64,000 nt of DNA, taken from positions 62,001 through 126,000 of the forward strand of contig PFUL01000007.1 in the NCBI GenBank assembly GCA_002790095.1, written 5' to 3'. Position numbers and translations under genes: made by a program. The stretch's first letter is position 1. The number at the start of each line of letters is the position of its first letter. Positions 1 through 13,217 of this stretch are shown piece by piece. This DNA is from Elusimicrobia bacterium CG_4_9_14_3_um_filter_62_55 (GTDB lineage Bacteria > Elusimicrobiota > Elusimicrobia > UBA1565). The notes under the pieces were generated by a model. It saw only the letters and a list, made by a program, of their open reading frames with translations, had not been told where the DNA came from and made no database searches.

Positions 1-2413
1 CGCCGAGCGCCGTTTCGAACGGCTCGCGAGCGCCCGCAACCAATTTGCTGTGAAACGCGGCCGAGACCGGGAGCCGCTTGACCCGCACGCCTTTCTCGCG
101 CAAGAACGCCTCGGCGCGCTCGATCTCTCCGGTGGCCCCGGAAAGCACGCCCTGCGCCGGCGCGTTCTTATTGGCGAGAACCAGGTCGAACCCGCCCTCC
201 TTTATATAGGAAGAAACCTCGTCCAAAGGCGCCTGAACCGCGAGCATCGAGCCTTTGTCGCCCAAGCCGTCGGCCATCAACTTCCCGCGCAGCGCGGAAA
301 GGCGGAAGAATTCCTCCGGGCTGAGGCGTCCTGCCGCGCAAAGCGCGGTGAGTTCGCCGTAGCTGTGCCCGGCCGCAAGAGCGGGCTTCACGCCGTAACG
401 CTTGAGCACGCGCGCGGCACCAAGACTGACCGCGCCGATCGCCGGCTGGGCGCGGCGCGTGTCGCGCAGCGCGCGCTCGTCGGCTTCCGCCGCCTCTGCG
501 GTGAAGGTCGGATGCGGGTAGACGCGGTCGCTTAGGCGGCCTTCCCCTTCCGGATCGGTCCAAACGGCGTCGGCCTCGGCGAGCGTATCGATCATTTCGG
601 GATAACGACAGGCAAGATCGCGCAGCATGCCGACGGACTGCGACCCCTGTCCCGGGAACAGGAACGCCAGCTTGCCGGGCGCGCCCGACCCGTAGTAAGC
701 CCCATCCGGACTGCTCGCGCGCTTCGCGGCGACGAGCTTCCCGGCGCTCTCGAGAACGCGCGCCGCGTCGCCTCCTTTCTCGATGACGACCACGACGCGC
801 TGGGCCGCCTTCGCGTCGAACGCAGCGCGGGAAACGGCGGCCGCGGCGCGCAGGGAACTCCACGCGGCGTCTTTCGGGAACACCGCGATCGTGCGAAGCA
901 GCGCCTCGGTCGAGCCGGCCGAGAACGCGGCGATCGTCGTCTCCGCGTTCTCGTCGGGCGTCGCCTTCGCGGCGCCATGCTCTTCGAGCACGCAGTGAAA
1001 GTTGCTCCCGCCGAAGCCGAGCGCGCTGACCGCCGCTCGGCGCGGATGCGCCTCGCGCGGCAGCCACGGCCGCGGAGCGGTGTTCACGTAGAACGGACTC
1101 GCCCCCGGCTGCAGCTGCGCGTTCGGGCGGCGCACCTTCAGCGTCGGAGGCAAGGTCTTTCGCTCGAGCGAGAGCGCGGCCTTAATCACCCCGGCGACGC
1201 CGGCGGCGGCCTTCGCGTGGCCGATCATCGACTTCAGCGAACCGAGGGCGCACCAGGTCCCTTCCTGGGAGGCCTCGCGGTAGACCTCGCCGAGAGCGGA
1301 GGCTTCGATCGCGTCGCCGACCTTCGTCCCGGTGCCGTGCGCCTCGACCAACTCGACGGTCGTCGGAGAGACGCCGGAGCGGGCGTACGCGTCGCGCAGC
1401 GCGCGAACCTGGCCCTCGGCGCTGGGTTCGTAAATCGCCGTTCCGCGGCCGTCGCAGGAGGAGCCGATGCCGCGAATCACCGCGCGGATCCGATCCCCGT
1501 CGCGCTCGGCGTCGGCGAGACGCTTAAGGACGAGCATGCCGACTCCTTCGCCGAGGGTCGTGCCGTCGCCGTCGGCGTCGAACGGCTTCGCGTCGCCGCT
1601 CGGAGAGAGCGCCGGGGTCTTGCTGAAGCACATGTACATGAAGATGTCGTTGAAGGTATCGACGCCCCCGGCGACAACCAGCTCGCTCTTGCCGGTCGCA
1701 AGCTCCATCGACGCGAGATGCAATGCGCCCAGCGAACTCGCGCAGGCCGCGTCGACGACGCAATTGGTTCCGCCGAGATCCAGCTTATTGGCGATGCGTC
1801 CGGCGACGACGTTTCCCAGCAGTCCGGGGAAGGAGTTCTCCTGCCATCCGACATAGCCTTCGGAGATCCGCTCGACCGCGTCGTCGGCGATGGACGGATC
1901 GACGCCGGCGGCAAGCATGGCTTTTTTCCAAAGCGGGTGGCCGAGCCGCGCCCCGAGCGGAATCACGAGTTCGAGAGCTCCGGTCACGCCGAGAATCACG
2001 CCGGTTCTCTTCGGATCGAACGCCCGGCCCTCACCCAATTCCTTAGGCCACGCGGTGTCGCCGGGAGCGCGGTAGCCGGCGTCGCGCAGCGCGTCGCGGG
2101 CGACCATCATGCCGAGCAATTGGGAGGTATCGGTCGCCTCGATATCCTTCGGCGCGAAGCCGAATTCGAGCGGGTCAAAGTCTACCGGGGAAAGGAACGC
2201 CCCCCGCTTCGCGTAGGTGAAATCGGGCCGCTTCGGATCGGCGTCGAAAAAATCAGCGGGATCCCAATGCGTCGATGGAATCGGGCCGACGGCGTCGACA
2301 CCGTCCCGGCAGTTCGACCAAAAATCCGCGCGGCCTCCGGCTTTCGGAAACAGGCAGGCGATTCCCACGATGGCGATCGCGTCAGGGGCCTTGGTCGTCG
2401 TCTTCTTTTTCAT
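1..2413 (-). CDS. pfaA: PfaA-like polyunsaturated fatty acid / polyketide synthase (5' part, cut by window edge)
   Basis: This is the N-terminal ~804 codons of a large multidomain synthase that continues beyond the left edge. A beta-ketoacyl synthase domain comes first, with the nucleophile Cys at about residue 224 in DAACASS and the histidine motifs EAHGTGT and GHAKAAAG. An acyltransferase domain follows, with LFPGQGSQSVGM and the active-site Ser at about residue 684 in GHSYGE. KS followed by AT is the order known from PfaA of secondary-lipid synthases, which build long-chain polyunsaturated acids from malonyl units on tandem ACPs; the ACP and KR parts would lie outside the window. The start is ATG at 2413, overlapping the pfaD stop as ATGA, so the two are translationally coupled. 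Whether the product is a PUFA, an alkene or a heterocyst-type glycolipid chain cannot be told here. Confidence 0.85.
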   Translation of the reverse strand, partial: MKKKTTTKAPDAIAIVGIACLFPKAGGRADFWSNCRDGVDAVGPIPSTHWDPADFFDADPKRPDFTYAKRGAFLSPVDFDPLEFGFAPKDIEATDTSQLLGMMVARDALRDAGYRAPGDTAWPKELGEGRAFDPKRTGVILGVTGALELVIPLGARLGHPLWKKAMLAAGVDPSIADDAVERISEGYVGWQENSFPGLLGNVVAGRIANKLDLGGTNCVVDAACASSLGALHLASMELATGKSELVVAGGVDTFNDIFMYMCFSKTPALSPSGDAKPFDADGDGTTLGEGVGMLVLKRLADAERDGDRIRAVIRGIGSSCDGRGTAIYEPSAEGQVRALRDAYARSGVSPTTVELVEAHGTGTKVGDAIEASALGEVYREASQEGTWCALGSLKSMIGHAKAAAGVAGVIKAALSLERKTLPPTLKVRRPNAQLQPGASPFYVNTAPRPWLPREAHPRRAAVSALGFGGSNFHCVLEEHGAAKATPDENAETTIAAFSAGSTEALLRTIAVFPKDAAWSSLRAAAAVSRAAFDAKAAQRVVVVIEKGGDAARVLESAGKLVAAKRASSPDGAYYGSGAPGKLAFLFPGQGSQSVGMLRDLACRYPEMIDTLAEADAVWTDPEGEGRLSDRVYPHPTFTAEAAEADERALRDTRRAQPAIGAVSLGAARVLKRYGVKPALAAGHSYGELTALCAAGRLSPEEFFRLSALRGKLMADGLGDKGSMLAVQAPLDEVSSYIKEGGFDLVLANKNAPAQGVLSGATGEIERAEAFLREKGVRVKRLPVSAAFHSKLVAGAREPFETALG

Positions 2414-4035
2414 CCGAGTCTCTCCCATAATTCATCCCCTTTGACGGGGCGCACGCGGGCGCCGGAGGGCAGAGGAACGCCCTGCGCGCGCAGCGCGTTC
2501 AGGCGCGTCTCCACCGCGGCGCCGAAAAGCAGGTTGGAGGCGACCCTGGAGACGGTGCGGGCGCGCCAATCCTCGAGCGGTGATCCCGCGACCCATTCGT
2601 TGAAGGCTCCCATCGACGGGCCGCACCAGACCTGATAGTCGATTTTGCGCTCGGGGAGCCCCGCATTCGCCCAACGCGATGCTTGCCCGAGGTAGGCGCG
2701 GAACACCAGCGCCATCTTGTGCTTCGGGTCCCGCTCGGCGCGCTCGATCTGAGACGGATCGCGCGTTTGAAAGAACGCGCGCGTGGACGCCCAGGCGTTT
2801 TCAAGCGTATCCCGGAACAGATCCTTCTCGAGGCGCGCGCGCTCCGGCGCCGGGATCGCGTCGAGCGAATCACAGGTGCGGTAGAGTTCGTAGAGCTTGG
2901 CCCCGCGCATGGCGAACATCGTGCCGCGCTTGAGCACCTGGACCTTCACTCCCATTTCGAACATGTCGGCGGCGGGCGCCATCGTCACGTCGGCCTGGCG
3001 GGCTCCGGCCAGCAATTCCCGAACGGCGTCGGAGGTCCCGGCTTCGCGGGTTCCCTGATGGACCGAACCGATCAGCACATACGCCGCGCCCATCGCGAAC
3101 GCGGCGGCCGCGGAGGCGGGCGTCGAGATTCCACCGGCGGCGCCGACGCGCAGCGCGGCGCCGTAGCCGTATTTCTCCTGAAGGCGGTCGCGAAGGGAAA
3201 GCAGCGTCGGCCAAAGCGTCAGCGGGGAGCGGTTGTCGGTGTGCCCGCCCGAATCGGCTTCCGCCGTGACGTCCTGGGCCACGGGGATTTCCGCGGCGAG
3301 CGCGGCCTCCTCCGCCGTCAGTCGTCCGGCGGCGACCAACTCGCGGAGGATGCGCTCCGGCGCGGGAGAGAAAAACTGCTCGGCGACCTCGACGCGGGAT
3401 ACCTTCGCGACGACGCGATTCGGCGCGACGACGCGCCCGTGCGCGCCGCGGCGGATTCCGGACAGACGATAGCGCACGATGGCGGGCGTGAGGCCGAGGT
3501 ACGCGGAGGCCTCGACCATGCGCACGCTCCTGCGCAGCAGAAGCTCGGCCAACGCCTCCTCGAGCTCGGGTTCGTTGGGGCTGTGAATCAAATTCACACC
3601 GTAGGGAAGCTCGCCGAGTTCGACGTCGAGTTTTTCGATCGCCCGCTCGACGCGCTCGGGCGCAAGACCGGCCGCTCCGAAAAATCCGAGCGCCCCGCGG
3701 CGCGCGAGCTCAACCGCGATCTCAACCGACCCGATTCCGTTGGCCATCGCTCCGGAAACATAGGGGAACCGAATTCCGTGATCGCGGCAAAACGACGAGT
3801 CCCCTAAACGGGAGGCGGGAAGCGGCGGTGACACCGCGACGAGGGTCCCCGCCCCGCCGAGCCGGGCCTCCCCGTTGGTGACGGCGAACAGCGCGCCGTC
3901 TTTTTCGATGACCGAAACAATTTTGCCCAAATTCCCCAGCGCATCGACAACACGATCCAGCGGATAAACTTCGGATTCGGGATCGGAGGACCAAGAGCCG
4001 ATCGTCGGATAACGCAAAGCGGGGAGAACGGTCAT
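2410..4035 (-). CDS. pfaD: PfaD-family enoyl reductase of PUFA/polyketide synthase
   Basis: The 541-residue protein has the PfaD architecture: an FMN-dependent TIM-barrel enoyl reductase related to 2-nitropropane dioxygenase. Motifs typical of the family are visible, for example GIRFPYVSGAMANGIGS near the N-terminus, EADSGGHTDNR, RVGAAGGISTP and AAYVLIGSVHQGT. The C-terminal tail YQVWCGPSMGAFNEWV is also characteristic. In known systems PfaD reduces enoyl intermediates on the ACPs of PfaA/PfaC. It is first in a minus-strand operon with pfaA, overlapping it by 4 nt. I chose ATG 4035 over the upstream in-frame start at 4086 because the extra 17 residues do not resemble the family. It is divergent from a TetR regulator that probably controls it. 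Confidence 0.92.
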   Translation of the reverse strand: MTVLPALRYPTIGSWSSDPESEVYPLDRVVDALGNLGKIVSVIEKDGALFAVTNGEARLGGAGTLVAVSPPLPASRLGDSSFCRDHGIRFPYVSGAMANGIGSVEIAVELARRGALGFFGAAGLAPERVERAIEKLDVELGELPYGVNLIHSPNEPELEEALAELLLRRSVRMVEASAYLGLTPAIVRYRLSGIRRGAHGRVVAPNRVVAKVSRVEVAEQFFSPAPERILRELVAAGRLTAEEAALAAEIPVAQDVTAEADSGGHTDNRSPLTLWPTLLSLRDRLQEKYGYGAALRVGAAGGISTPASAAAAFAMGAAYVLIGSVHQGTREAGTSDAVRELLAGARQADVTMAPAADMFEMGVKVQVLKRGTMFAMRGAKLYELYRTCDSLDAIPAPERARLEKDLFRDTLENAWASTRAFFQTRDPSQIERAERDPKHKMALVFRAYLGQASRWANAGLPERKIDYQVWCGPSMGAFNEWVAGSPLEDWRARTVSRVASNLLFGAAVETRLNALRAQGVPLPSGARVRPVKGDELWERLG

Positions 4036-4831: not shown

Positions 4832-6364
4832 TCAACGCCGGCGCTGCGCCTGGACCGCGTCGAGAACCGCGGCCCCCAAGGAGGGCGCGGGGGCGGCGGC
4901 CGTCTTCTCCGCCAGATACTCCCGACGCTTCTCGTCGAGTTCCCGAATCCGGGACTGCAGACGTTCTCGTTCCGCCGCCTTTTTCTTAAGAGCCCGCTCG
5001 CGCTCTCCCTTATCCATCGCCTTCAATTCCGCGGGGAGCGCCTCCTCCGCCAACGCCTCTCCCTTCTGCGCGGCGGAAACGGCGTCCCATTGCGCGCTCT
5101 GCGAGTACTGCGGCTTCGCCATAAAAAGCGCGCGCTCGACCGCCGCGCCCCCGGAAGCCCCTCTCACGGCTGCGGCGGCCCGGGCCTGACGGGCCTTGGC
5201 CCGCTCTCCGTGCGCGCCCAACGGCACATAGGTGTCCGACAACTCGCGCCCCAGCCGCTCGAGCTCATCGTCTTGCGGAGCGCGCATCGCGAGCACCGGC
5301 CGGTCCTGATCGATGGCAAAGTACTCCCCGCCGGCCGACACCGCGCCGTCCTGCCAGGAGGCCGCGATGCCCCGCTGATGCGAGCCGCAGAAGACGGTGT
5401 TGACGAAAATCCCTTTTGCTTTCGCCGACCGCAGCGCCGCGCGGTAGTCGACCGGCCCCTGAGCGAACGATTCGTTTCCCGCGATAAAGATCGCCTTGTA
5501 CGCTCCCGGCTCGCCGGACCACGACAACTCGCGCGCGGCTCGCTCGATCACCTGTCCGGCGTGCTCGCTGCCGCCCTCGGTACTCAGCGCGAACAGCGCA
5601 TCGGAAACAGCGTCAAGGTCCTTGGTGAACCCCACCACCCTCCGGATATAGCCCGTCCGCCCGTCCAACCGGCTGTTTCCGTACTCGTATAAGGCCACCT
5701 CGACCGAGGCGGATTCCCCCTTCTCTTCGCCGACAGCCAATTCGTTCACGATTTTCCACAATTGATTTCTCGCCTGATCGATAAGCCCGTTCATCGAACT
5801 GCTGGTATCCAAGAGCAGCGCGATCTGAGACGCGTTCTTGCCGGACGGGGACGGACGCACGACGACCGGATCCGCGGGGGAGCCGGTCCAGCTCCGGTCG
5901 ATGCGCCGGATGTCGGCGGAGAGGATTCGAGCCGTCTCCGTTCGTACGAGTCGGGCGTTCACCTCGGCCCGGTTTTTCGCCAGGTCCTGAAGGGTTCCCG
6001 TGACGACCGCCCCCGCTCCGAGCACCTTGCCCAAACGCTGCGCCGTTTCGGCGTCGACGACCCCGGAAGCGCCCAACTTCATTTCGCCGAGCACTTTTTC
6101 AAGCAGGCGTCTCTCGATGACTTCAACCTTCCCGGTTTCGGCCAAATAGGTCGTCAACCGTTCTTGGATGATCGTGGATCCGGGACCGACGCGACCGTCA
6201 TGGTACGGAAAAGAGAGAACCGCCACTTTGCGGTTCCCTTCCTTGCTTAAGCCTTTGACGAGCTTCTTGGCCATTGATTTCAACGCGTCGGCTCTCGCCG
6301 GAGCCGGAGCGAACGCGAGCAGCGCGGCGGCGGCGAAGAATACGATCGTTTTTTCCCACTTCAT
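4832..6364 (-). CDS. Secreted CsgG/FlgO-like N-domain plus von Willebrand A protein with coiled-coil tail
   Basis: This is a 510-residue exported protein with a signal peptide (hydrophobic stretch to about residue 24). Residues ~25-165 look like the nucleotide-binding-like fold of CsgG/FlgO proteins: KVAVLSFPYHDG, a predicted helix with ERLTTYLAE, then VEVIERRLLEKVLGE and GAVVTGTLQDL. Residues ~180-370 are a VWA domain with an intact MIDAS start, DTSSSMNG (Asp about residue 186). A basic/acidic helical tail rich in Lys, Arg and Glu (~450-500) is probably coiled coil. Start ATG 6364 follows GGAGGG. It is divergent from the Sel1 gene. A related CsgG-like protein lies nearby at 7360-8658. Function is unknown; an envelope adhesion or assembly role is a guess. 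Confidence 0.8.
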   Translation of the reverse strand: MKWEKTIVFFAAAALLAFAPAPARADALKSMAKKLVKGLSKEGNRKVAVLSFPYHDGRVGPGSTIIQERLTTYLAETGKVEVIERRLLEKVLGEMKLGASGVVDAETAQRLGKVLGAGAVVTGTLQDLAKNRAEVNARLVRTETARILSADIRRIDRSWTGSPADPVVVRPSPSGKNASQIALLLDTSSSMNGLIDQARNQLWKIVNELAVGEEKGESASVEVALYEYGNSRLDGRTGYIRRVVGFTKDLDAVSDALFALSTEGGSEHAGQVIERAARELSWSGEPGAYKAIFIAGNESFAQGPVDYRAALRSAKAKGIFVNTVFCGSHQRGIAASWQDGAVSAGGEYFAIDQDRPVLAMRAPQDDELERLGRELSDTYVPLGAHGERAKARQARAAAAVRGASGGAAVERALFMAKPQYSQSAQWDAVSAAQKGEALAEEALPAELKAMDKGERERALKKKAAERERLQSRIRELDEKRREYLAEKTAAAPAPSLGAAVLDAVQAQRRR

Positions 6365-6424
6365 GGCATCCCTCCGGATCCAGCCCCGGTAGGACACCGC
6401 TCGGGCTTGCGGGTTCCCGCTCTA

Positions 6425-6453
6425 TTGACCCCCGGTCCCGCGGGGCCTATCAT
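6425..6453 (+). promoter_or_regulatory. Sigma70-type promoter of the Sel1 gene
   Basis: TTGACC at 6425-6430 and TATCAT at 6448-6453 are spaced by exactly 17 bp. The ATG at 6460 starts six bases after the -10 box, so transcription would begin at or next to the start codon. An AGAGGG directly abuts the ATG and is too close to act as a normal Shine-Dalgarno sequence. Confidence 0.6.
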
Positions 6454-6459
6454 AGAGGG

Positions 6460-7239
6460 ATGCGTTCGAGCCTCCTTTCTTTTTCCCTCGCTTTTTTCGC
6501 GATAAGCGCGCAAGCAGCGATCTCCACGGCGCGTCTGGCCTATAAAAACGGGGATTATGAAGAAGCCGCTTCCCTCGCCTTGGCGGCACTCTCGGAACAA
6601 GACCCCGCGGCGATGGATCTGCTCGGCGATCTCTTCCGGGAAGGTCTGGGCGTTCGCCGCGACATGGAGACCGCGTTCGGCTGGTACGAAAAAGCGGCCC
6701 AGCTCGATTACCTTCCCGCGCTCTACCGCGCCGGAGTTTACGCGCACGAAGGCAGGGGGACTCCCGCCGATCCGCAGCGGGCTCTGCGCTGGATCCTGCG
6801 GGCGTCTGAAATCAAGAATCCGGGAGCACAGTTCGACGCGGGCACGGTAGATTGGATCGGCTACCGCGCCTCCGAACGGGAAGATCCGCACGCCCTGTTC
6901 GTGCTCGCCAAGATTCTTCAAAACGGATGGGGCGTGGTTCGAGACGCCCGCGGGGCGGCCGAACTTTACGCCGCTGCGGCGATGGAGGATCACCCCCTTG
7001 CCCGCATCAATCTCGGCTCGATGCGCCTTCGCGGCGACGGCGTCGGAGAGGATGAACGCTCCGCGCTCGGTCTATTCGAGAAAGCCGCCGAGCAGGGATT
7101 CGCGATCGCGCAATACAACGCGGGGCTGCTGCTGTCCCGCGAGCGCGGTCCGTTCATGGACAAACCGCGCGGCAAAGAACTATTGGAGCGGGCCGCGGCG
7201 CAGGGATTTACGCCGGCGCTCCGGGAGCTTTCGCGGTGA
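6460..7239 (+). CDS. Secreted Sel1-like repeat (TPR-type) protein
   Basis: The 259-residue protein has a short signal peptide (LLSFSLAFFAISAQA) followed by Sel1/TPR solenoid repeats across almost the whole mature chain. Typical repeat cores are GDLFREGLGVRRDMETAFGW, YAHEGRGTPADPQRALRW, KILQNGWGVVRDARGAAEL and MRLRGDGVGEDERSALGLF, each with the small residue-G-x-G-V turn. Sel1 repeats are protein-protein interaction scaffolds; the partner is unknown, but divergent and downstream neighbours are CsgG-like envelope proteins. The start at 6460 is set by the signal peptide and the promoter immediately upstream. Confidence 0.88.
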   Translation: MRSSLLSFSLAFFAISAQAAISTARLAYKNGDYEEAASLALAALSEQDPAAMDLLGDLFREGLGVRRDMETAFGWYEKAAQLDYLPALYRAGVYAHEGRGTPADPQRALRWILRASEIKNPGAQFDAGTVDWIGYRASEREDPHALFVLAKILQNGWGVVRDARGAAELYAAAAMEDHPLARINLGSMRLRGDGVGEDERSALGLFEKAAEQGFAIAQYNAGLLLSRERGPFMDKPRGKELLERAAAQGFTPALRELSR

Positions 7240-7359
7240 GGCGGTTTCTCGCCGACGCGCTGCTCACGAGGGGATTTAAGCCGACGCGCGCCGCGACAAC
7301 CGCGGCCAAACCCCGCGCCTTGCCGGCGCCGGGGACGCCGTACTCTTGGAGTCACGATA

Positions 7360-8658
7360 ATGCGACATGCCCTGATCCTTTCCTGCTCCTTTCTCCTCGC
7401 CCTCCCCGCAAAAGCCGCGAGCCGCGTTGAGAAAACCGCCGCCTTGCTCGCCGAACCCCTGTTCGCGTCCCCAGCGCAGCGCGGCGCGAACGTCGCGATC
7501 ATACCCTTCGAGTCGGCGGACGGGAAGACTTCGGAGCTGGGACGCGCGTTTTCCGACTCGCTTTCCGCCCTCGCGATCACAAAGGAACGCTTTACCGTGC
7601 TTGACCGACAGTACGTGGGACAGATGCTTAAGGAAATCCGGCTCGGAATGACGGGATTGGGAGACCCGAACACCGCTGCCCGCATCGGGAATTTCTCCGG
7701 GGCCCGCTATCAACTGGTCGGACGAATCGAACTCATCGCGAAGCGGAGAATCCGGGTTTCGGCTCGGCTTCTCGAAACCGAAACCTCGAAACTCGTCGCG
7801 TCGACGGCCGTGGAAACCCGTCTGACTTCGCAAATGCGCGCGCTGCTCGAAAAGACCGTCGCCGTCGACGCAGTGTCCGCGTCGCTGTTCAACGAAGAGG
7901 CCCGCGATTCCGACGCGGTCTTCCTCGACCGGGCCGGCGTGCGCGGGTGCCGGTGGATCGAGGCAAGGGCCTCGGTGCCCTCCCTTGAGTCGGTCGACGC
8001 CTCGCGCGCCGCGGCGCTTTCTGTTGCGCGCTCTAAAGCCGTGGCCCGTATGCAGGGAACTGAAATCAAAGGCCATCCCGACTTTTCCGATGACGCGGTC
8101 TCCGAGCAACTCGAAAAGGTGCTGCGCGCGACCCGTTCGAGCCGCGTTGAAGCCGAGAAGGTCGTCGATGCGCACAAGACCTCGGGGCGCTACGAACTTA
8201 CGCTGGAAACCTGCCTGAAGCCCGCCCGAAAAGGGAGCGGACTCTCCGTGGAAATGATGCTCAACCAGAACCGTTTCACGCCCGGGCAGGATGCGCGGGC
8301 CATCGTCACGGCGTCCCGGGACGCGAGGCTCTACCTATTCAGCGTCGATTTTGACGGACGCGCAATCCTGGTCTTCCCCTCGGAAGGCGCCGCCGACAAC
8401 CGCGTGCGCGCCGGCGTCCCGTTCGCGTACCCGGACGAAGCCCTTCGCGCCGGCGGAATCCGCCTCGTCGCGGAACTTCCCAAAGGGCACGCGCGTTCCG
8501 TCGAAACCCTGCGCGCGCTCGCGGTTGAACGCGACGTTTCCTCTCTGTTCGCGGGGCTTGAGCGCTACGCCGATTTCGTCAAGGCCGTCGAGGAGAGCGG
8601 TGCCGCGTGGGACGAAGACGCGCGTGTGTTCACGATCCGCTCCGCCGACGCTAAATAA
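7360..8658 (+). CDS. Secreted CsgG/FlgO-like protein with DUF4384-type C-terminus
   Basis: This is a 432-residue exported protein with signal peptide ALILSCSFLLALPAKA. Residues ~40-150 form a CsgG/FlgO-like domain: GANVAIIPFESADGK, a helix, FTVLDRQYVGQMLKEI and GARYQLVGRIELIAK. Residues ~285-400 resemble DUF4384: NRFTPGQDARAIVTASRDARLYLFSVDFDGRAILVFPSE in consecutive segments. Proteins with this pairing are usually envelope-associated and often sit near caspase-like or lipoprotein genes, but none is seen here. It shares the N-domain plan with the VWA protein at 4832-6364. The stop overlaps the convergent small secreted gene by 8 bp. Function unknown. Confidence 0.8.
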   Translation: MRHALILSCSFLLALPAKAASRVEKTAALLAEPLFASPAQRGANVAIIPFESADGKTSELGRAFSDSLSALAITKERFTVLDRQYVGQMLKEIRLGMTGLGDPNTAARIGNFSGARYQLVGRIELIAKRRIRVSARLLETETSKLVASTAVETRLTSQMRALLEKTVAVDAVSASLFNEEARDSDAVFLDRAGVRGCRWIEARASVPSLESVDASRAAALSVARSKAVARMQGTEIKGHPDFSDDAVSEQLEKVLRATRSSRVEAEKVVDAHKTSGRYELTLETCLKPARKGSGLSVEMMLNQNRFTPGQDARAIVTASRDARLYLFSVDFDGRAILVFPSEGAADNRVRAGVPFAYPDEALRAGGIRLVAELPKGHARSVETLRALAVERDVSSLFAGLERYADFVKAVEESGAAWDEDARVFTIRSADAK

Positions 8659-9142
8659 CGACGTCTTGCTCGTCACCGGCGTCGTACTGTTCAGGCTCGG
8701 AGTAGTCTTCGATCGCGAGCAGCGGCCTGCCCCGGTCGCATCCGATAAACACGAAGTAGGCGATGAACTTATCGCCGGGCCGGAGATCCATTTCCAGATA
8801 GGGGATCAGACCGTCGGGGGCGACCGCCCAGTACACCGTGCGGCCGTCCGAAAGCGAACGCATTTCACCGTAGCGCGCCGACGCCTCCGGATCGCCGACA
8901 TGCGCCGCCCACCGAGTGATCAGCGCCGCGTTCCGGGCCGACACCTTCCTGCTCGCGCCCTGCCAGCGCATTTGCGAGGAAAACAACACGTCCTTGATCC
9001 CGTCGGCGGAGCACGCCTCCGTTTCCAGCGCGGCGCCCACGGTGTAGCGCGGGTAGTCGTCCGGATTGAAGTCTATCGTTTTTGAATCCGATGCGCCGAC
9101 GGCCGCGGCCAGCAGCAGCGCCCAAGCGCTAGGGAAGAACAT
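8651..9142 (-). CDS. Small secreted protein of unknown function
   Basis: A 163-residue protein with a signal peptide (FFPSAWALLLAAAVGAS). I do not recognise the family. The mature part has mixed alpha/beta character with segments such as GRTVYWAVAPDGLIPYLEMD and KFIAYFVFIGCDRGRPLLAI. I chose ATG 9142 because it starts the signal peptide and overlaps the end of the upstream HEAT gene by 14 bp, which suggests coupling; a longer frame upstream is only the shadow of that gene. The 3' end overlaps the convergent CsgG-like gene by 8 bp. Confidence 0.65.
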   Translation of the reverse strand: MFFPSAWALLLAAAVGASDSKTIDFNPDDYPRYTVGAALETEACSADGIKDVLFSSQMRWQGASRKVSARNAALITRWAAHVGDPEASARYGEMRSLSDGRTVYWAVAPDGLIPYLEMDLRPGDKFIAYFVFIGCDRGRPLLAIEDYSEPEQYDAGDEQDVVI

Positions 9143-10208
9143 AATCCCCCAGGAGGGCACGCGTTTCCCGGATAGTGGCGCGCAGCGCCGGATCGGGATC
9201 GTCTTTGCGCCGCCGAAGTTCGAAAGCGGCTCGGTCGCCGCCGACGGCCCCCAGCGCGGCGACGGCCGCCGCACGCACACCCTCGTCCGGGGACCCTAGC
9301 AGTCCGGCCAGCGGGAGCACCGCGCGAGGCGAACCCGAGCGCCCGAGCGCGCGCACCGCGGCGAAAAAGTGTTCCCCAGGTCCGGCGTCCAGAATCGCGG
9401 CGAGATAGGCGATTCCTTGTGTTTTTTCGAGCGCGGCGAGCGCTCCCGCTGCGGCGATTCCATCGGCGTAGGGGCCGACGACCTCCTCCAGAAATCCGTC
9501 GAGCGTTAAGACCCCGATCCTTCGCCCCATGCGAGCGAGCGCGTACGCCGCCGCGATCCGTACACTTGAAGACCCCGTAGTCAATCGCTCGCGCAGCAGA
9601 CGCTCCGCCTCTTTCCCGCCGATACGGCCGAGCGCGTCGGCGGCTGCCCCGGCACGAAGATCGTCGCTCCCTCCCAACAACGCCGCGAACACGGGGATGG
9701 ACCCCGCGTCCCGCATCCGGCCGGCCGCTTCGATGGAGGCGAGTGCGACCTCGGAAGCTGCATCATGAATCCCGCGCCTAACGGCGGCCAGCGCGGCCGC
9801 ATTTCCCTCTTCGGCGGTGCGTCCGATCGCGAGCGCCACCGCCCCGCGCAGACGTTGGAGTTCCCGATCGCCTTCCTCTTCGGAAACCGCAGCCCCGAGA
9901 AGGCGCTCCCACTCGACGACGAGAGGACCCGAGGCCTCACGGTATGCCAATTGCCCCAGCGCTTCCACGAGCGCGCGCCGCTGCGGGGCCGGTAAAGCCG
10001 AGTCCAACAGGCGCGGGGCCAATTGAATCGCAGCCTTGCGTCTCCGGGAGACCCCGATCGCCCGGATCATCAACGGCTTCTCGACCGTGGGAGCCTCTGG
10101 AAGATCCTTTAAAAGCCTGCGGTAATTGATCCGCGCCCCGGCCGCCGCCGGCAACAGCAAGACTCCGGTGAGCAGTCCCACGCACACCCGCGGCGTTCGC
10201 AGCCCCAT
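9129..10208 (-). CDS. Secreted HEAT-repeat protein
   Basis: The 359-residue protein begins with a signal peptide (VCVGLLTGVLLLPAAAGA) and is otherwise built of HEAT / PBS-lyase-like helical repeats. Examples are AGAAADALGRIGGKEAERLL, VRIAAAYALARMGR and VRAAAVAALGAVGGDRAAF. Such solenoids bind other proteins; no enzymatic motif is present. It is first in a two-gene unit with the small secreted gene at 8651-9142 and divergent from the histidine kinase at 10261. No good Shine-Dalgarno sequence precedes ATG 10208, so the start rests on the signal peptide. A second secreted HEAT protein lies at 24304-25281. Confidence 0.85.
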   Translation of the reverse strand: MGLRTPRVCVGLLTGVLLLPAAAGARINYRRLLKDLPEAPTVEKPLMIRAIGVSRRRKAAIQLAPRLLDSALPAPQRRALVEALGQLAYREASGPLVVEWERLLGAAVSEEEGDRELQRLRGAVALAIGRTAEEGNAAALAAVRRGIHDAASEVALASIEAAGRMRDAGSIPVFAALLGGSDDLRAGAAADALGRIGGKEAERLLRERLTTGSSSVRIAAAYALARMGRRIGVLTLDGFLEEVVGPYADGIAAAGALAALEKTQGIAYLAAILDAGPGEHFFAAVRALGRSGSPRAVLPLAGLLGSPDEGVRAAAVAALGAVGGDRAAFELRRRKDDPDPALRATIRETRALLGDYVLP

Positions 10209-10260: not shown

Positions 10261-11826
10261 ATGACAACTGAACGCAAGCAGGCCGAACACTTCGAACTGC
10301 TGCTCGAGGTCGGACGATTGTTGTCGTCCAAGCTCGAGCTGTCCGAACTGCTTCACACCGTGATGCAGCTTGCCGCGCGGGTCGTCAACGCCGAAACGGC
10401 CTCCTTGCTGCTCGTCGACCCGGAAAGCAACGAACTCTATTTCGACGTCGCCCTCGGTCTGGACCCGGAACTCTCCAAGATCCGGCTGAAAATGGGCGAA
10501 GGCATCGCCGGGACGGTCGCCGCGGCGGGGAAGCCGGAGATCATCAACGACGTCAGGGCCGACCCCCGCTGGTCCTCGAAGGTCGATGCCGACTCCGGCT
10601 TCGTCACGCGCTCGATTTTGGCCGCCCCGATCGTGCTGCGCGGGAAATGCATCGGCGTGGTCGAGGCGATCAACCGCATCGGAGGGGATTTCACCGACGT
10701 CGACCTGCGCATTTTTGAAGCCTTCGCCTCCCAGGCCGCGGTGGCTATCGAAAACGCCCGCCTCTTCGCTTCTCTCGTGGAAGAAAAATCGAAACTTGAC
10801 AAACTCCTGAACGAAATGAACGAGGCGGCGGTTCTCACCGACGGGAAAGGCGGCATCCTCGTCGCGAACGCCGCCGCGCGCGGCTTCATGGGGGCGAATC
10901 CTGAAAACAGGATCGACGCCGCAGTCGCGGGAATGACGCTGACGCCCTCTCTGCAAGAAGTCCTGATCTCGACCGCGCCGCTGCTTACGTTTGAGGCGGT
11001 TCGGGAAGAGCCGAAGAAGCTCATTCTGGCGGGGAGCGCCTCTTCGATCATCGACGAGAAGGGAGGAGAGGTGACCGGGAGAGTCGTCGTTTTCCGTGAT
11101 GTCACCGAGGAACGCAGAGAAGAAGGCCTCAAGCGCAACTTCCTTTCTCTGATCTCTCACAAACTCAAAACCCCGCTCGCCTCGATCACCGGCTACAGCC
11201 AGCTCCTCATCGACGATCTCAGCAAGAAGGAAGAAGAAAAGGGCGGTTTCCACGTGAGCGCGCTCCGAACCGTCCTGCAGCAGGGACAAAAACTCACGGG
11301 GCTCGTGGAAAAACTCCTCAACTACACCGTACTCGAGGACCTGCAGGCGACCGAACTCTCGAAAATCGATTTTAAGGTGCAGGAGGTTCTCGATCAATCC
11401 GTTGAGGCGCTCAAAAACGTCTTGGCGGAAAAAAAGGCCGAGACCTCCGTCGCATGCTCCCCGGACATCCGCGCCGTGGGGGATCCCGGCCTGATCCGCG
11501 ACGTTTTCAAGAACTTGATCGAAAACGCCGTAAAATTCTGCGCGAACGAATCTCCTAAGGTCGAAATCGAAGCACTTGAAGAAGACGGAATCGTCGTCAT
11601 TCATTTCCGCGACAACGGCCCGGGCATCCCCCCCGAGGAAATAGATCGCGTGTTCCGGAAGTTCTACCAGATCGACGTTTCCTTCACAGGCCAGATCGAA
11701 GGCTGGGGGCTTGGACTGCCTTTCGCCGCCGTCGTTCTTGAAAAACTGGGCGGCGGACTCCGCTGCGAATCCCGCGTCGGCGAAGGATGCGACTTCATCG
11801 TCACGTTGCCTGCCTTTCTCCGATGA
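10261..11826 (+). CDS. Sensor histidine kinase with GAF and PAS-like domains
   Basis: This is a cytoplasmic 521-residue histidine kinase without membrane segments. Domains in order: GAF (about 15-165, with MGEGIAGTVAAAGKPEIINDV and GVVEAINR), a PAS-like sensor (about 180-285), HisKA with phospho-acceptor His300 in LISHKLKTPLASI, and HATPase_c (about 390-520) with N-box NLIENAVKF, G1 DNGPGIP and G2 GWGLGLPF. No cognate response regulator is adjacent; the nearest is the lone receiver at 23904. An AT-rich TAATAT (10244-10249) precedes the start. The stop overlaps the tldD start as ATGA, an unusual coupling of a kinase to a protease. The signal sensed is unknown. Confidence 0.92.
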   Translation: MTTERKQAEHFELLLEVGRLLSSKLELSELLHTVMQLAARVVNAETASLLLVDPESNELYFDVALGLDPELSKIRLKMGEGIAGTVAAAGKPEIINDVRADPRWSSKVDADSGFVTRSILAAPIVLRGKCIGVVEAINRIGGDFTDVDLRIFEAFASQAAVAIENARLFASLVEEKSKLDKLLNEMNEAAVLTDGKGGILVANAAARGFMGANPENRIDAAVAGMTLTPSLQEVLISTAPLLTFEAVREEPKKLILAGSASSIIDEKGGEVTGRVVVFRDVTEERREEGLKRNFLSLISHKLKTPLASITGYSQLLIDDLSKKEEEKGGFHVSALRTVLQQGQKLTGLVEKLLNYTVLEDLQATELSKIDFKVQEVLDQSVEALKNVLAEKKAETSVACSPDIRAVGDPGLIRDVFKNLIENAVKFCANESPKVEIEALEEDGIVVIHFRDNGPGIPPEEIDRVFRKFYQIDVSFTGQIEGWGLGLPFAAVVLEKLGGGLRCESRVGEGCDFIVTLPAFLR

Positions 11827-13217
11827 ACGTCGATGCGGCGAGCGTCCGCCATGAGGATTGGGCTCCGGCACTGACCGGCGGGGAATACGGGGAAGTTTTT
11901 CTCGAAAACTCCCGCGGGACGGCGGTGTCGTTCGAGGACTCCCGAGTCACCGAGATTTCCTCGGGAGAGGACCGGGGGACCGGCCTGCGCTACCTGGAAC
12001 GCGGCCCTGACGGCTCGATCCAAACGCTGCACGGGGCGATCAACGCGATCGATCCGAGCGAGGCGCGCCGACTCGCGGACTCCCTGTTGGCAGGGAGAGT
12101 CCGAAAATCCCCTCCTCCGTTCGCGCGTCCCGAGGTTTTCCGGAAAAACCTGCTCCTCGTTCCGGGGGATTTCCCGATGGAGGAAAAAGTCGCCCTTCTG
12201 GCGAAGCTCGACGGGATCATCCGATCTGAATTTCCCCACATCCGCCAAGTTCACCTCGCCTATTCCGAGCGCGAGCGCCGCTTCGCCATCCTGGATACCG
12301 ACGGCGCATTCAAGATAGGAGAACGCGTGACGATGGCGCTGGGGGTCAGCGTCACCGCGGAAAAAAAGGGCGTTCTGCAAAGCGGCTCCGAAGTCATCAG
12401 CGGACTCAAAGGACGCGAACTCCTCGTCGATTACGACGCCGTCCGCATCGCCCGCCGCGCGGCGCGTTCTGCGGTTGAGAAGTTGTCCGCGCCCGTGGCC
12501 ACGGCCGGTCAGATGCCGGTCGTCCTGGCCTCCTCCGCGGGGGGGACCTTCGTTCACGAAGCGATCGGACACTCCCTCGAGGCCGATCATGTGCAGGAGG
12601 GAACTTCCCCGCACTACGCCGGCGCGATCGGAAAGACGATCGCCAACGAATTTCTCACGATCGTCGACGACCCCTCGCTGCCGTTCGCCCGGGGCTCGTT
12701 TCCCTTCGACGATGAGGGGCTTCCCGCCCGCGCGACGCCGCTGGTTGAGAACGGAGTGCTCGTCGATTACCTTTACGACCGCACGACCGCACTCCGGGAC
12801 GGACGGGCGTCGAACGGACACGGACGGCGGGAATCTTTCCGGAACAAACCGATCCCGCGGATGTCTAATCTTTACATCGCTCCCGGCAAGGAGGACCCCG
12901 CCGCGATCCTGCGGGACCTCGACAAAGGGCTTTGGGTCACCAAGATGGGCGGCGGAGAAGTGAATACCGCGACGGGAGAATTCGTTTTCGGAGTCGACGA
13001 GGGATACTGGGTCGAAGGCGGGAAAATCCGGCACCGCGTTCGAGACGCGAACATGCTCGGGGTCGGTCCCGACGTTCTCCGTTCGATCGACCGCCTTGGG
13101 TGGGATATGGGATGGGGAGTCGGAACATGCGGAAAGCAGGGCCAAGGCGTTCCCGTTTCGGACGGACAGCCGACGCTCCGAATTCCCTCGCTTTTAATCG
13201 GAGGCCGTGAAGAATGA
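11823..13217 (+). CDS. tldD: TldD-family metalloprotease
   Basis: This 464-residue protein matches TldD of the TldD/PmbA metalloprotease family. The family zinc motif HExxxH is present as HEAIGHSLEAD (His245, Glu246, His250). Conserved family segments include LLVDYDAVRIARRAARSA, FPFDDEGLPA, GRRESFRNKPIPRMSNLYI and MGGGEVNTATGEFVFGV. The E. coli TldD-TldE heterodimer cleaves unfolded peptides and matures microcin B17. No PmbA/TldE partner is visible, so it may act alone or pair with a protein encoded elsewhere. Start ATG 11823 overlaps the histidine-kinase stop; the stop overlaps the next start. Confidence 0.92.
   Translation: MNVDAASVRHEDWAPALTGGEYGEVFLENSRGTAVSFEDSRVTEISSGEDRGTGLRYLERGPDGSIQTLHGAINAIDPSEARRLADSLLAGRVRKSPPPFARPEVFRKNLLLVPGDFPMEEKVALLAKLDGIIRSEFPHIRQVHLAYSERERRFAILDTDGAFKIGERVTMALGVSVTAEKKGVLQSGSEVISGLKGRELLVDYDAVRIARRAARSAVEKLSAPVATAGQMPVVLASSAGGTFVHEAIGHSLEADHVQEGTSPHYAGAIGKTIANEFLTIVDDPSLPFARGSFPFDDEGLPARATPLVENGVLVDYLYDRTTALRDGRASNGHGRRESFRNKPIPRMSNLYIAPGKEDPAAILRDLDKGLWVTKMGGGEVNTATGEFVFGVDEGYWVEGGKIRHRVRDANMLGVGPDVLRSIDRLGWDMGWGVGTCGKQGQGVPVSDGQPTLRIPSLLIGGREE

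Follow-up and report, generated by a model that had tools for sequence, protein, structure and literature searches.

Three genes for exported proteins that lie side by side raise the question of whether their products work together. The genes are found in a window of 64,000 nucleotides (the whole stretch of DNA that was analysed), which lies within a contig of 127 kb, one of 202 in an assembly of 4.3 Mb. Gene A (4832-6364, minus strand; Pfam and ORF evidence) encodes a protein of 510 residues with a FlgO-like domain, a VWA domain, and a helical tail. The second gene (6460-7239, plus strand) encodes a 259-residue protein with five Sel1 repeats (Pfam Sel1, 105 bits), and gene C (7360-8658, plus strand; Pfam CsgG and DUF4384) encodes 432 residues in which a FlgO-like domain is joined to DUF4384. 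A preliminary description had proposed that A and C, with the Sel1 protein as a scaffold between them, form one envelope assembly. We favor another reading, which we consider probable while well short of assured: A and C are side by side mostly by accident, as two independent exported units that share a mobile FlgO-like domain, with A forming one unit and the Sel1 protein and C being what is left of an orthocaspase cassette.

By eye, all three proteins begin with an apparent signal peptide, suggesting that they are exported, and no lipobox Cys is seen in either A or C. Genes were called with a simple, purpose-made caller. The probable start of A is the ATG at 6364 rather than the GTG at 6397, with GGAGGGAT located just upstream of this ATG, and the Sel1 gene starts at 6460. 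Since A diverges from Sel1 and C, the three genes do not constitute one operon. PADLOC gave no match for A, the Sel1 protein, or C, while the caspases of relatives match its general caspase model.

The domain content of A was largely as previously described. Its FlgO-like domain (residues ~20-162) exceeds the Pfam cut-offs for FlgO (PF17680; 29.7 versus 22.6 bits, model positions 2-121 of 130) and CsgG (36 bits, restricted to model positions 40-104 of 210). The VWA domain (residues 177-351; 32.5 versus 23.8 bits) had been credited with an intact MIDAS. A canonical MIDAS consists of DxSxS, a Thr, and a last Asp. All 49 A orthologs examined indeed share the D-x-S-x-S motif and the Thr without variation, but where the usual last Asp would align, all 49 read A-G-N-E. 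From the alignment, the VWA domain of A has a non-canonical MIDAS from which the usual last Asp is absent. AlphaFold models the VWA domain and the tail (residues 365-510) with pLDDT values mostly of 80-93, and Foldseek searches with this model return VWA and integrin-type or I-domains. What had been called a coiled-coil tail stands as a helical one: it is modelled as helices, the longest spanning residues 452-490.

Full-length A is present in 67 of 340 phylum genomes by hand count. The 78 genomes listed for A were sorted by hand into these 67, 2 with A in two pieces of one frame, 3 with a cut or split gene, 2 with the VWA domain only (G057 and G331), and 4 with the N-domain only. In G331 and in G333, whose protein is fused, the A relative is equally placed between PdxJ-like and GlmS-like genes (named by eye). 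Outside the set, all 10 named loci, which belong to Bacteroidota-type bins, Eremiobacterota, and unplaced bacteria, carry the VWA half by itself. Because this half is standalone in other phyla, the FlgO-like domain of A appears to be an add-on, either gained here or lost elsewhere. In one family, a GH3-type gene follows A on the same strand in 31 of 32 loci, C or Sel1 is never there, and an ApbE-type gene lies on the other side of A in most. At locus L138, A is followed by mlaA-, mlaC-, and MMPL transporter-like genes, assigned by eye; the MMPL gene of G001, the sister species, was confirmed. To the left of A in the window (2-4035) are a PfaD-like gene and a ketoacyl synthase and acyltransferase gene that is cut by the window's edge. 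Ketoacyl-synthase/PfaD-type genes are also found beside A in G001, G010, and G022.

C is far less widespread, with strong full-length copies in 9 of 340 genomes and two shorter C-like genes in G003 and G212. Its FlgO-like domain (residues ~19-152) exceeds the Pfam cut-off for CsgG (26.5 bits, model positions 35-98 of 210); FlgO (PF17680) is not among the Pfam matches of C, even though its N-domain is homologous to that of A. A weak FlgT_N-like middle (residues ~195-290) precedes DUF4384 (PF14326; residues 313-378, 30.4 versus 27 bits). FlgT_N (PF16548) is matched at E<=0.01 in 4 of 32 C relatives and is absent from C itself. Thus, the earlier statements that these are two exported proteins with different C-terminal modules, VWA in A and DUF4384 in C, and that a Sel1 protein lies between them are borne out. 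The Sel1 protein has a relative, 59% identical, at the equivalent position in G001. Adjoining C, as in G001 and G005, is a gene for a small exported protein whose family is unassigned (8651-9142, minus strand; the start at 9142 is taken from the G001 copy). No Pfam match was obtained with its whole ORF or with the G001 copy, and the G001 and G005 copies are 46% identical. It is followed by a gene for an exported HEAT-repeat protein (9129-10208, minus strand; Pfam HEAT_2, 81.9 bits), relatives of which lie near C in G001, G005, and G007. Genes for a GAF histidine kinase and a TldD-like peptidase (10261-13217) are conserved close to C in G005 and G007.

The motifs that A and C have in common reflect true homology of their N-domains. 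Comparison of 17 A-type with 8 C-type N-domains by hhalign gives a probability of 99.4 and an E value of 8.7e-22 over 139 columns, and a profile of the 49 A orthologs matches the C N-domain with an E value of 4.9e-19. On this profile evidence, the two N-domains belong to one superfamily. The structure models add little here: AlphaFold leaves the A N-domain below a pLDDT of 50 over most of residues 39-174, and the model of C, made from a 2-row alignment, has a mean pLDDT of 37 and was not used. Consequently, the proposal of a common fold for the N-domains rests on profiles rather than models. Against solved structures, the A N-domain profile matches TolB alone (E 0.012), and the C N-domain profile has no match.

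In the N-domain tree, built with every third A row (16 of 49) and with pieces shorter than 100 residues omitted, A forms one group (99/89) and C another (88/77), and the two are not sisters. Of 18 proteins with another make-up, 17 fall on the side of A, and one (L083) is next to C; cytochrome-, Kelch-, and full-CsgG-type proteins are closer to A than C is. The tree rules out a local duplication of the N-domain as the origin of the A/C pair. (L075, a copy of the window, was omitted from the N-domain list, the MIDAS count, the trees, and the count of Peptidase_C14 genes given below, and is still among the listed C-half proteins used for reading loci.) PF17680 is matched in 43 of 57 relatives, and the window's own genome has 8 CsgG matches. 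The N-domain is also joined to cytochrome c and caspase parts and, by eye, to Kelch-, SPOR-, or barrel-like parts. Judged by these combinations, the FlgO-like domain is used promiscuously as a module within this order, and its sharing by A and C is therefore weak evidence for a complex. In three loci (L088, L094, and L097), it is fused to cytochrome c-type domains (by eye in L088 and L097). The loci read show that its commonest partner (L079, L081, L086, L087, L090, and others) is a tail of ~100 residues with A-R-[FY]-W-A and N-P-G-S-[ED]-I, whose family is unassigned, and at L076 (own genome, C161) there are three CsgG-domain matches in ~2.3 kb.

The proposal of one envelope assembly, in which A, the Sel1 protein, and C are joined via their FlgO-like domains with Sel1 as scaffold, had drawn on these related N-domains and can also appeal to gene order, since A, Sel1, and C are arranged alike in the window and in G001, with the divergent A/Sel1 pair 95 bp apart. 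Conservation in relatives, which the preliminary description had asked for, does not extend beyond the genus. The trio is adjacent in 2 of 51 A loci, namely, the window and G001; the other 49 have no Sel1 relative or full-length C nearby (these 51 exclude L064, L069, and L070, whose A relatives were missed by the gene caller). In addition, 4 of the 9 strong C carriers are without full-length A, most A carriers are without C, and, as noted, the two N-domains are not sisters. The preliminary description would have abandoned the assembly if the neighborhood was not conserved and the N-domains had different folds; the first is what was found outside the genus, whereas the second is contradicted by the profiles. 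Altogether, we regard a single assembly as improbable, while acknowledging that the adjacency of A and C in both species of the genus is a counterpoint to our own reading of two units.

The FlgO and CsgG scores, together with the weak FlgT_N matches among the C relatives, might also suggest that the proteins are FlgO-like components of the outer-membrane ring of a flagellum or belong to a CsgG-type secretion channel. Yet the flagellar P-ring protein FlgI and the curli protein CsgF were each found in 0 of 57 relatives, with the controls matched; the match covers just the central third of the CsgG model; the lipobox Cys is missing by eye; and a separate, full CsgG protein is encoded in the same genome (L078, 114 bits). 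This explanation is thus very improbable.

A feature that the preliminary description missed lies between Sel1 and C. In G001, the order is Sel1, a gene for an ankyrin-caspase (Ank-C14, 640 residues), and C, with overlaps of 4 nt between Sel1 and C14 and of 1 nt between C14 and C. In the window, Sel1 and C are separated by 120 bp, and an intact Peptidase_C14 gene is absent; what is present is a remnant of ~110 bp (7248-7357, plus strand), recognized by blastn and tblastn against the 640-residue protein. Positions 7248-7285 match codons near residues 74-86 of G001 Ank-C14, and 7283-7357 match residues 616-640, the last 25. The two pieces are in the right order and on the right strand, and they meet at 7283-7285. 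Identity by blastn amounts to 77% across an 83-bp stretch (E 1.4e-14) and 79% across a 38-bp one (E 2e-5); by tblastn in the whole window, it is 72% over 25 residues (E 7e-5). This score was reached by none of the 489 shuffles, out of 500, that gave any score, and by none of the scored stretches among 500 drawn at random from the window. The first ~70 residues and the whole middle of Ank-C14, including the catalytic motifs, are missing in the window, and the six C14 genes elsewhere in the genome match the G001 protein over the caspase domain at most. These alignments would mark the window either as a cassette that has lost its protease or as an assembly fault, and since the assemblies of the window and of G001 are fragmented, a fault at 7240-7357 is possible. 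The reading frames of C and Sel1 are still open even though the caspase is missing, a hint that they may work without it. If the reading of a lost protease is right, the locus is a natural knock-out, in which the partner genes are kept and the protease is gone.

A caspase-like protease as the recurrent partner of C was likewise overlooked before. A Peptidase_C14 gene is next to C in 5 of 9 strong C loci (G001, G005, G063, G064, and G216; in G064, it was assigned by a caspase profile), although G063 and G064 are near-copies, so that the five cases are four independent ones at most. These genomes have just 1-2 C14 genes each, and we estimate that a C14 neighbor would arise by chance about once in a thousand per locus, at one gene per kb. 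The caspase gene is upstream of C in G001 and G005 and downstream in G063, G064, and G216, and all five proteins contain the His-Cys motif. In the caspase tree (32 of 34 pieces kept, those shorter than 180 residues omitted), the C-adjacent caspases are not one clade: the best tree needs 4 changes, of which 2 are forced by well-supported branches, placing these proteins, as far as the tree goes, in at least two caspase lineages. More broadly, of 52 matches to the C half (DUF4384), 15 have a C14 gene at most 2.5 kb away, versus 0 of 66 matches to the A half. Within that distance, no C14 gene accompanies C in G007, G009, and G180 (where C is near a contig end) or the shorter C-like genes in G003 and G212, and the majority of standalone DUF4384 relatives have no caspase neighbor. 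The parts also occur in one chain, as FlgO-like, cytochrome c, and C14 domains in L094 and as Sel1 plus C14 in L187, from the window's own genome. At five loci of genus g5 (L176-L179 and L181), motA- and motB-like genes, named by eye, lie upstream of the caspase gene and DUF4384 gene; these genomes are among the 57 relatives from which FlgI is absent.

The recurrence of this pairing bears on the simplest alternative, that there is no functional link at all and that independent exported genes are adjacent by chance, with C and Sel1 heading for loss. The remnant between Sel1 and C and the weak conservation of the trio more widely speak for this explanation, but C and a caspase gene are adjacent in four lineages and in different orders, and G005 and G007 retain the HEAT, histidine kinase, and TldD neighbors of C. 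We consider it improbable, if slightly less so than the single assembly.

Standalone DUF4384 genes offer a further possibility. Many relatives (L149, L153, L155, L158, and others like them) have two genes of ketoacyl-synthase size (>1100 residues) with a DUF4384 lipoprotein gene between them, and at one such site (L160), a caspase gene is present as well. C might then be tied to lipid or polyketide-type biosynthesis, as in operons resembling those for PUFA synthases, with the caspase link being secondary; A, too, adjoins ketoacyl-synthase-type clusters in two families, including the genes at the left of the window. Against this, the stretches read around strong C genes in G005, G007, G009, G063, G064, and G216 contain no ketoacyl-synthase neighbors, and most A loci have no neighbors of this type. 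Such a tie seems unlikely, if somewhat less so than a purely chance arrangement.

Under the reading of two units, the first would be A, a phylum-conserved, soluble protein of the periplasm. It may serve as an adaptor, whose FlgO-like domain docks onto an envelope partner, whose VWA domain grips a second protein, and whose tail oligomerises. The second unit, the Sel1 protein and C, would be the rest of an exported Sel1/Ank-caspase/C cassette in which the protease gene has been deleted down to the remnant. C could be a partner, on the side of the envelope, to an exported caspase-like protease, acting as a sensor, docking platform, or substrate, and the Sel1 or Ank repeats could be used for recruitment. 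In the window, C and Sel1 may be decaying or may serve one of the six caspase-like genes elsewhere in the genome. All of these molecular roles and partnerships are what we infer from the loci, and the roles by themselves are doubtful. Still more speculative is a general scheme, in which the exported, often lipoprotein-type orthocaspases of this phylum would be run by a separate envelope partner with FlgO-like, FlgT_N-like, and DUF4384 parts; the partner would sense or bind the outer envelope and switch the protease on, and proteolysis would be periplasmic rather than cytoplasmic. If the two-unit reading is right, the exported caspase homologs of bacteria, a group with few assigned roles, gain a recurrent partner that can be tested. 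A, for its part, is a FlgO-VWA protein that the phylum has widely kept, with an invariant, non-standard metal site.

Several known systems resemble parts of this locus. The N-domains of A and C fall into the FlgO/CsgG/LpoB/TolB-N superfamily (PF17680, PF03783, PF13036, and PF04052), as they exceed the FlgO and/or CsgG cut-offs. Unlike the proteins of those systems, A and C carry a single such domain plus other modules, their CsgG match is partial, and no lipobox is seen; the whole-domain match expected of the CsgG secretion channel is absent in both (40-104 and 35-98 of 210 positions). Likeness to FlgT is limited to the middle part of some C relatives, where FlgT_N is weakly matched; the one score looked at in detail is under the Pfam cut-off (23.9 versus 28.8 bits), and the relatives lack FlgI. 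Exported VWA proteins of ~370-420 residues (L049-L058) are 42-47% identical to A over the VWA domain and tail in 9 of 10 cases (38% for L058), and they are standalone, without the FlgO-like domain of A.

Closest to the C-linked cassettes are the orthocaspases and prokaryotic metacaspases with Sel1, WD40, and DUF4384 accessory domains. Excerpts of published surveys list DUF4384 and Sel1 as accessory domains of orthocaspases (PMC8283722, PMC7475262, PMC3501461). Among cyanobacterial orthocaspases, 23 contain DUF4384 and 2 contain Sel1 (PMC8283722), and a survey of prokaryotic caspase homologs counts 40 (6.0%) with Sel1 (PMC3501461). The same excerpted survey reports N-terminal helices, possibly signal peptides, in 46 caspase homologs (PMC3501461), so exported caspase homologs would not be new as such. 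Literature searches combining CsgG with bacterial caspases found nothing on this pairing among the first 10 of 20 matches, those combining CsgG, von Willebrand, and domain architecture found none, and those for FlgO/DUF4384 and FlgO/FlgT listed no title or abstract that describes fusions of this type. Within the reach of these searches, both the split cassette with a FlgO-like plus DUF4384 partner and the phylum-wide FlgO-VWA protein are new. The set of modules is the same as in the known orthocaspases, while here it is distributed among several genes whose products have apparent signal peptides, the DUF4384 partner bears a FlgO-like domain, and, in the window, the protease is reduced to a remnant.
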